A stretch of 24,492 bases of DNA from a virus, in IMG/VR virus record IMGVR_UViG_3300025781_000071, positions 1 to 24,492 of that record. The stretch is one strand, 5' to 3'. Of the stretch, positions 23,021 to 24,492 are shown piece after piece (positions within the stretch are counted from its first letter, which is position 1; each line of letters starts with the position of its first letter). The translations under genes were made by a program, and so were the position numbers. The notes below the pieces were generated by a model. That model worked only from the letters and a program-made list of their open reading frames with translations. It was not told where the DNA came from and ran no database searches.

Positions 23021-24073
23021 TTACAGGAATGTAAACACGCCCGCTACTGACAATAACAATAGTGCCCATGCGATCAGTGCCGTGTAATATGTTGTTAGAC
23101 TGGTTCCAAAATAACGCTTGCCGATCATGACACATTCGTGCATGGGAGTCAACAGGTATCCGCAGTAGTCTAGAGCAAAAAACCACAGTAGGTATTGTGC
23201 GCCAAATGCACTGGTCATGAGTACTGTGAGCGCAGCAAACTTGCCGTCACTGCCCATGCTGAAACTGGCAATAAATGTCAGCAAGCTGATGTAGAATATG
23301 CCCTTGAATGTGTGCATGTCTAGCCCTATACTGCGTACAGTGTCCTCGAACCAGGCACGATGTTCCTGCATGTATCCCGAACTGGCAAATACTACTGCCA
23401 CAATGGCCACTGTGGTCCAATTGATATAACTGTTTAATTTTGCCAAATTGTAACTGTTGGTCAACACAATGTAGTACAACAACATTGGCCCGAACACATA
23501 AAATACCGCTTCAGGTCCTTCTCCGCCCATGAGCATGTAGGCCACAATGGCAATCAAGAATGGCACTGTGTTTTTAACAAAATTCCACAATCCGCCACTG
23601 TCGCAGGGTTGTATTACTACTTCGTCTTCACGCACACTGAACCAGCAATAGGATACTATAAACAAGGCGCTGACAACTAACAGTGGCCACATCATGCCCA
23701 ACCATGCAGTATAGCCCAGACCAAATGCGGCCATGGGCAACAGTACCGGTTTTTCTATCGGGCTCCACATGTAGAAATGATGTGTGGTCAAAAAGTCCAC
23801 AATGCCTAGTTTTTTGCGACTCTCAGTATCGCCTGCGGTGCCGGTGGCAGTATCCAGTATACCAGCACTCACTGTGGCCCTACCTTCAATGGGCAGGATA
23901 CCAGCAACAAAACTCAGCAACATAATCACCAAGCGATTGCTACGAAATGTGTTTTTTAAGTAGCCATAAGTGCCAGCAAATATATTGTGTTCTTTGGCAA
24001 TGCCACTCACTACCATGATTGAGATCAAGACGAATAGATAAATTTCGTCATCCAAGTATTGAAGTATTTGCAT
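23021..24073 (-). CDS. Polytopic membrane protein, DUF401-like / permease-like (350 aa)
   Basis: A 350-aa protein with about nine or ten hydrophobic segments (for example 11-27, 47-62, 120-145, 168-183, 189-206, 218-232, 258-274, 282-302, 327-350). There is no cleavable signal sequence. Residues 54-73 read LSFVAGILPIEGRATVSAGI in outline, then ILD, followed by THHFYMWSPIEKPVLLP. Near the end is DYCGYLLTPMHECVMIG, then KRYF. The LPxxG, SxxxD and SP(L/I)EK features and the late GYxxxPxHxC motif resemble the DUF401 integral-membrane family, related by fold to ion-transporter-superfamily permeases. No such protein exists in T4. The gene follows the 2OG oxygenase after a single base (TAA-C-ATG), so it is translationally coupled and has no Shine-Dalgarno sequence. 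Substrate unknown; probably an acquired host-type function. Confidence 0.8.
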   Translation of the reverse strand: MQILQYLDDEIYLFVLISIMVVSGIAKEHNIFAGTYGYLKNTFRSNRLVIMLLSFVAGILPIEGRATVSAGILDTATGTAGDTESRKKLGIVDFLTTHHFYMWSPIEKPVLLPMAAFGLGYTAWLGMMWPLLVVSALFIVSYCWFSVREDEVVIQPCDSGGLWNFVKNTVPFLIAIVAYMLMGGEGPEAVFYVFGPMLLYYIVLTNSYNLAKLNSYINWTTVAIVAVVFASSGYMQEHRAWFEDTVRSIGLDMHTFKGIFYISLLTFIASFSMGSDGKFAALTVLMTSAFGAQYLLWFFALDYCGYLLTPMHECVMIGKRYFGTSLTTYYTALIAWALLLLSVAGVFTFL

Positions 24074-24074
24074 G

Positions 24075-24492
24075 TTATTTGAATTTGGTTAAGTAATCGT
24101 CCAAGCCGGACATTTTTAATTTGGGTTTAACATCATTATTTACAACCATAGGTTCCAATACAAAATTTCCTGCAACCGAAATTCTAAACCGATCGCTGGT
24201 ATAAAATGGATACACACAGTGATGCATACTGGCCGGAAACATCAGCATACGATTGTTGTAGGTTCGGTCCACTGGCAAGTTGTAAGTTATTAAATTACCA
24301 ATGCTGTTTAATGTCACTAGACTGAAATGTCCGGGTACATTCACATGTGCATTTCTACTGGGCTTGCGAGCCATCTCGTCCCGAATGTCGTAAGGCACAT
24401 CAATCCAGATCACAAAACTCATCACACCCGAGTGATCATGCAACGGATTGAACTCGTGCTTTTGTTGAAAGTTGACCCAGGCCTTGCCCAAT
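24075..24492 (-). CDS. 2-oxoglutarate/Fe(II)-dependent oxygenase, 5' end beyond the window
   Basis: The frame is open at the right edge; the only start-like codon (TTG at 24489-24491) is probably internal, since this family normally has 80 or more residues before this point. The visible 138 residues contain KAWVNFQQKHEFNPLHDHSG, then SFVIWIDVPYD, a MLMFPASMHHCVYPF strand and RFRISVAGNF. The first HxD/H pair (HDH), the distal His in PASMHH and the Arg in DRFRIS fit the Fe(II) and 2-oxoglutarate ligands of the double-stranded beta-helix fold. The text closely resembles oxygenases found in many cyanophages. Such enzymes hydroxylate or demethylate proteins, nucleic acids or small molecules; the target is unknown here. 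It is coupled to the downstream membrane protein. Confidence 0.88.
   Translation of the reverse strand, partial: LGKAWVNFQQKHEFNPLHDHSGVMSFVIWIDVPYDIRDEMARKPSRNAHVNVPGHFSLVTLNSIGNLITYNLPVDRTYNNRMLMFPASMHHCVYPFYTSDRFRISVAGNFVLEPMVVNNDVKPKLKMSGLDDYLTKFK

Follow-up and report, generated by a model that had tools for sequence, protein, structure and literature searches.

A phage-encoded DUF401 permease and the outer-membrane protein genes that adjoin it

The permease gene, its family, and its phages

The window, i.e., the whole stretch of 24,492 nucleotides that was analysed (IMG/VR virus record IMGVR_UViG_3300025781_000071), ends with a 2OG-Fe(II) oxygenase gene that runs into a DUF401 permease gene on the minus strand (Table 1). 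The permease ORF starts with ATG, has no internal stops, and encodes an intact protein of 350 aa. The TAA-C-ATG coupling of the two genes that had been described in an earlier note on this DNA is seen at 24077-24071. The 5′-incomplete oxygenase gene matches PF13759 (2OG-FeII_Oxy_5; E 1.5e-8, 35.4 bits compared to a cut-off of 27) and phrog_81 (E 6.4e-19).

Table 1. Position of genes, motifs, and intergenic features around the permease gene of the window
Feature	Position	Strand	Basis
Structural genes and genes of unknown function between the permease gene and the NUDIX gene	16250..22983	-	
Gap of 37 nt 3′ of the permease stop; place of the barrel gene in related phages	22984..23020	-	
DUF401/IT-superfamily permease gene, 350 aa	23021..24073	-	ORF translation, Pfam, PHROGs, predicted fold
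TPMHEC codons, residues 309-314, second-repeat loop; His312 and Cys314 invariant (77/77)	23132..23149	-	
GSDGK codons, residues 274-278, second-repeat loop; Ser275 and Lys278 invariant (77/77)	23240..23254	-	
HHFYMWSPIEK codons, residues 98-108; His98, His99, Tyr101, Trp103, Ser104, Glu107, and Lys108 invariant (77/77)	23750..23782	-	
LPIEGR codons, residues 60-65, loop between model helices 46-59 and 65-77; Arg65 invariant	23879..23896	-	
TAA-C-ATG junction, one base between oxygenase stop and permease start	24071..24077	-	Sequence
2OG-Fe(II) oxygenase gene, 5′ end lost at the contig end	24075..24492	-	PF13759, phrog_81

A Pfam profile search placed the permease in PF04165 (DUF401) with an E value of 7.9e-9 and 35.8 bits, above the gathering cut-off of 24. 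This bears out the likeness to DUF401 claimed in the earlier note, whose motifs LPIEGR, SPIEK, and GYLLTPMHEC are all present in the translation, and the observation as a whole is confirmed. The match covers part of the profile, positions 60 to 383 of 393, and the first ~59 positions are missing. All 14 related contigs exceed the PF04165 cut-off as well; the match begins at position 55 to 62 in 13 of them and at position 29 in the remaining one, where it reads through two stops. Since nearly all of the phage DUF401 proteins start near profile position 60, they are a shortened form without some of the scaffold domain, which counts against a working transporter. Compared to DUF401/COG1906 (PF04165; archaeal arCOG04354), the transporter core of which it matches, the phage form thus differs in its late start, but also in invariant motifs of its own and in a score far below the NCBIfam cut-off for TIGR00529, the AF0261 equivalog (48.1 compared to 378.4 bits). 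In PHROGs, the window permease matches phrog_14035 (E 1e-69), a family listed with unknown function, which, together with the cyanophage "hypothetical protein Glov_0511," represents the same phage protein family; the records of both that were examined give no function, fold, or gene-pair context. Between the window permease and four relatives, pN is 0.12 to 0.13 and pS is 0.83 to 0.90. With pN far below pS, the protein is under strong selection and is not a chance ORF.

A close search yielded 26 DUF401 loci, an alignment-based scan of viral contigs yielded 347 relatives, and another two scans, each led by a different member, yielded 306 and, with a cyanophage-led alignment, 396 relatives; the sets overlap, and the best 80 of each were studied as loci. 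Furthermore, nine Synechococcus phage records carry DUF401 relatives. With such numbers, even from overlapping scans, the expectation that a protein of this kind is rare in phage did not hold. No relatives were found in bacterial genome contigs, searched with phage-derived patterns, or on plasmids; cellular DUF401 proteins of Thermotoga maritima and E. coli were matched in a control search, one of them above the cut-off. The resulting 252 loci include the same contigs repeatedly, and rates are given for 77 representatives at 90% identity, or for 75 in the case of downstream rates, where L080 and L213 were dropped because they have too little downstream sequence. Genes in these loci were called as simple ORFs.

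The term T4-like, used in the earlier note, is too narrow for the phage setting. The tail sheath of the window (5746-9078, 1110 aa) is nearest to those of jumbo myophages, namely, Agrobacterium phage Atu_ph07, Sinorhizobium phage Phosso, and PA5oct-like Pseudomonas phages, and none of the named phages covers 80% of it. The jumbo-phage-like sheath suggests that the phage genome is very large and that the window contig represents a small part of it.

Predicted fold and conserved residues

The permease was modeled with AlphaFold2 from an alignment of 68 sequences, drawn solely from viral contigs and the window itself, and the model (pLDDT 82, pTM 0.81) has 19 helical elements. The top Foldseek match was VcINDY with fumarate (E 1.3e-4, TMq 0.71), ArsB was second (E 2.2e-4), and NaS1, Pho90, and TRAP SiaQM were matched as well; the probability was 1.00 for VcINDY, ArsB, and NaS1. 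All five are carriers of the ion-transporter (IT) superfamily. In VIA-align, the highest agreement was with NaS1 (Z 24.1, 4.2 Å over 336 residues), VcINDY-fumarate (Z 22.9, 4.2 Å over 339 residues), and NaDC3 with 2-oxoglutarate (Z 22.3, 4.9 Å over 342 residues), and the top 16 rows had Z values of 20 to 24 across 327 to 342 residues, compared to a background of 7.6 to 8.8 for CNT nucleoside transporters and from ~5 for other folds. YdaH and MtrF, transporters of the AbgT family, aligned with Z values of 16.0 and 12.2. In the predicted model, the IT elevator fold with its two inverted repeats is matched along most of the permease chain, and structure prediction, Foldseek, and VIA-align agree with the earlier view of a transporter-like permease with the fold of organic and inorganic anion carriers. 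A PDB sequence search with the DUF401 protein gave no match. The fold alone fixes neither the substrate nor the direction of transport.

With the VcINDY/DASS sodium-dicarboxylate carriers, the permease shares the elevator fold, but the identity in the structural alignment is 8 to 9%, and the N-terminal helices are lacking. VcINDY-like DASS carriers have SNT motifs at the hairpin tips; direct reading of the 350 residues of the window permease revealed no SNT motif, and in this respect it does not belong to DASS.

Residue conservation was counted in the 77 representatives, 76 to 77 of which have a letter in each column. Arg65, Asp74, Arg86, Asp93, His98, His99, Tyr101, Trp103, Ser104, Glu107, Lys108, Ser275, Lys278, His312, and Cys314 do not vary. 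In the AlphaFold2 model, the motifs LPIEGR, SPIEK, GSDGK, and TPMHEC lie at or beside interhelix loops, in a pattern that repeats in both halves of the permease and, by analogy to the known fold, the four loops would meet in one pocket. The presence of positively charged residues in all four conserved loops suggests an anionic substrate. COG1906/PF04165 proteins have been predicted by HHpred to be carboxylate transporters (PMC5898192).

Genes on either side of DUF401

Among the PHROGs families listed, the gene upstream of DUF401 belongs to phrog_81 in 14/69 representatives and to phrog_274 in 6/69; the latter, though named otherwise, includes 2OG proteins such as L011:3861-4499, which gives 20/69 with an upstream 2OG gene. 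In 140 control genes, drawn at random from 448 filtered genes of the DUF401 loci, the listed families amount to 17/140 (phrog_81, 11; phrog_61, 3; phrog_274, 3). The difference has a nominal Fisher p of 0.004, in a test that treats non-independent genes as independent. The Pfam view is similar, with PF13759 in 14/69 upstream genes compared to 10/140 controls. Other upstream genes among the families listed for the 69 representatives are RegA (8), gp32 (4), glutaredoxin (3), and more, and ABC_tran matches 1/69. The pairing is therefore real but loose: an oxygenase gene next to the permease gene does recur in other phage contigs above background, which partly supports the two-gene accessory unit proposed in the earlier note, but the oxygenases come from more than one family and are absent from most relatives. 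Hence, the permease can do without the oxygenase, and the two are at most loosely linked. A fixed permease-oxygenase unit was rejected, since the upstream genes vary and 2OG genes are a minority among them.

The one-base spacing in the window, the recurrence of 2OG genes in the upstream position, and the NaDC3 structure, in which the same fold binds 2-oxoglutarate, would all be in line with import of 2-oxoglutarate for the adjoining oxygenase, an idea of the earlier note to which the gene pairing gives no support. The upstream 2OG proteins belong to several families, the oxygenase of the window has no blastp match in L001-L026 (E 1e-4), and the upstream slot is mostly taken by RegA, gp32, glutaredoxin, or others. 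Moreover, 2-oxoglutarate is a central metabolite in most cells, and an import of something so common is not obviously needed. We consider such a supply of substrate very improbable, and as a general role of the permease it is unlikely.

Several other genes were seen on the upstream side. L009 has an ABC-transporter-like ATPase gene, recognized by eye, at 2038-2994, upstream of DUF401 and a barrel gene of the kind described below. A tryptophan-halogenase gene lies a few genes upstream of DUF401 in L076 (1253-2782; PF04820, E 3e-94) and L096 (1257-2786). In 13/80 marine cyanophage-like loci, an outer-membrane-like protein of ~125 aa and of another kind is encoded 0.3 to 1.2 kb upstream (for example, L252 1398-1769); it is not adjacent to DUF401 and was excluded from the outer-membrane counts given below.

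An outer-membrane barrel gene downstream of DUF401 is a more specific and stronger neighbor than the oxygenase gene. The next gene after DUF401 encodes a secreted outer-membrane protein in 29/75 representatives, or 29/60 outside the marine cyanophage clade, where none of the 15 assessable rows has a barrel. Among the 77 representatives, this is the main porin-like barrel in 23, an outer-membrane-like protein of 287 to 291 aa in 3, and a DUF2490-like barrel, a Gcw_chp protein, and a TonB-dependent receptor in 1 each. The main barrel protein has ~190 to 220 aa, starts with a signal peptide, and ends in phenylalanine; its model (pLDDT 88.9) has 10 strands, Foldseek matches include NanC, KdgM, and OmpG, and its alignment is highly diverse, with a mean column identity of 40%. 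By its signal peptide, its modeled barrel, and its C-terminal phenylalanine, the partner is an outer-membrane beta-barrel porin, with a predicted role as a pore.

The position of the barrel gene is strict. An iterated barrel profile matched 65 ORFs in the partly redundant set of 252 loci, all 65 directly after DUF401 and on the same strand, with starts from −166 to +56 nt relative to the DUF401 stop, and a direct scan of viral contigs for the barrel gave 17 loci, every one directly after DUF401. Barrel genes elsewhere in the contigs were considered and rejected: 30 contigs gave six full-length matches, all adjoining DUF401, and one remnant in the same place. No barrel was found in named phages. 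Among the 30 related contigs, 7 have a tail sheath and 8 a terminase gene; of the barrel-bearing contigs with phage genes, L007, L052, and L073 have both and L089 has a sheath.

Pfam families and a crude test for signal peptides point in the same direction. Among the 25 families listed for 73 downstream genes are OMP_b-brl (PF13505; 16), DUF2490 (10), HSP20 (4), ferritin (2), Phenol_MetA_deg (2), and HSP70 (2), where counts of different barrel families may overlap on one protein; the KdgM/NanC porin family PF06178 matches 1/73 (E 9.3e-4). No outer-membrane family is among the 25 commonest families listed for the 140 control genes. A signal-peptide-like start was seen in 28/71 downstream, 1/68 upstream, and 20/448 other genes, and in combination with a C-terminal aromatic end in 25, 1, and 3 of them, respectively.

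In some loci the downstream genes are of other kinds. In L090 (1124-5083) and, in part, in L091 and L165, DUF401 is followed by a DnaK gene and then by Hsp20-like, ClpS-like, haem-oxygenase-like, and bilin-reductase-like genes, the last four recognized by eye. A Dps/ferritin-like gene adjoins DUF401 or lies one gene further in L096 (6086-6523; PF00210, E 5e-25) and, judged by resemblance, in L145 (6078-6524) and L076 (7044-7481).

In 46/75 representatives no recognized outer-membrane gene is next to DUF401, and the presence of such a gene switches at least 17 times on the DUF401 tree, which indicates that it is dispensable for the permease. The cyanophage members, which are 30 to 33% identical to the window permease, have no downstream barrel. 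In the window contig itself, neither a barrel gene nor a remnant was found. Its DUF401 clusters with those of L001, L002, L004, and L020, and a barrel is present in L002, L004, and L020. Closer inspection of the gene order revealed DUF401, barrel, and NUDIX in L002 and L003, and DUF401, barrel, a homologue of window 16250-17077, and NUDIX in L018; in the window, the block of structural genes sits between DUF401 and 16250-17077. In L016, L017, and L025, DUF401 is directly followed by a barrel remnant, of which only the initial four and the terminal ~43 codons are left. From the barrel-bearing relatives that it clusters with and the decay in these three loci, it is likely that the barrel was lost or displaced in the lineage of the window.

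An outer protein that is this diverse and that switches families would also fit a surface arms race. Phages typically use outer-membrane barrels as receptors, and some encode outer-membrane proteins themselves (lambda Lom, the Lc porin of PA-2). It is imaginable that permease and barrel change the host membranes to block superinfection or to mask receptors, with no transport involved. However, a remodeling of the envelope accounts neither for the conservation of polar and charged residues in the permease loops nor for the retention of the permease in the representatives that have no recognized outer-membrane gene next to it, and we regard it as unlikely.

Possible roles of the permease

Our preferred reading, to which we would give an even chance, is that phages encode this permease as a secondary transporter of a small anion, probably of the carboxylate kind, and that it is often paired with an outer-membrane pore. 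In our model, the permease would be made during infection as an IT elevator carrier of the inner membrane and would change the uptake of the infected cell. Together with the pore encoded by the next gene, it would form a route through both membranes. The outer part is interchangeable (small porin-like barrel, DUF2490-like barrel, Gcw_chp, or TonB-dependent receptor), and several lineages, probably including that of the window, have lost it or exchanged it for something else; there, the outer step would fall to porins of the host. The main argument for cooperation of permease and barrel is that unrelated outer-membrane families swap at one position. The family, the fold, the invariant positively charged residues, and the order of the genes are established here, whereas transport activity, the anion, the direction of import, and the cooperation of the two genes are inferred.

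The protein family is already known, as it is catalogued in PHROGs and as a cyanophage "hypothetical" protein, and virus-encoded transport is known as a kind. The metabolic genes that viruses carry mostly encode soluble enzymes or individual parts of transport systems. In a literature search that was mostly at the level of titles and abstracts, we found neither a fold assignment for the phage family nor the pair of permease and outer-membrane protein. If our model is true, a large phage family now listed as unknown would gain its first function, and a recurring pair of inner and outer proteins would mean that phages refit the envelope of the host for uptake, beyond redirecting internal metabolism. 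The system lends itself to testing, since both genes are small, the transporter fold can be assayed, and nature has replaced the outer part several times.

The TonB-dependent receptor bears on the direction of transport. In L105 (6048-8201), L106, and L107, a protein of 717 aa starts 9 nt after DUF401. The protein of L105 has a plug (PF07715, E 1e-12) and a barrel (PF00593, E 2e-43) and resembles siderophore receptors such as the enantio-pyochelin receptor and FhuA; the terminase match in this contig is weak and partial (E 2.8e-8). A scan of viral contigs for the receptor gave just these three loci, with the receptor directly after DUF401 in 3/3. TonB-dependent receptors are import devices in familiar cases, and the replacement of the barrel by such a receptor in three contigs argues against the view of the permease as an exporter that, in the manner of ArsB or the AbgT-type pumps, rids the cell of an inhibitory anion or metabolite during infection, with the barrel as exit pore. 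The same holds for the absence of a periplasmic adaptor among the 25 downstream families listed. Export would agree with ArsB as the second Foldseek match and with the alignments to YdaH and MtrF, and altogether we consider it improbable.

A wider and more doubtful form of the import reading is that jumbo and T4-like phages encode a full import route across two membranes, with an interchangeable outer part, that scavenges an anion in short supply for the infected cell, perhaps a carboxylate or an iron chelate. The siderophore-receptor-like TonB protein, the Dps-like ferritins in some loci, and the frequent Fe(II) oxygenases point toward iron. In Caulobacter, a TonB-dependent receptor occurs with an Fe(II) dioxygenase (CciT-CciO, or PiuA-PiuC; PMC12004947). 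An outer-membrane importer is coupled to a dioxygenase gene in that system as well, but the pair has no inner-membrane permease. None of the phage loci examined has permease, TonB receptor, and oxygenase together. Relatives of the receptor were absent from bacterial genome contigs, and 18 named phage records show weaker similarity to it; 12 of these are contigs labeled Acinetobacter phage, several with a host-like receptor annotation.
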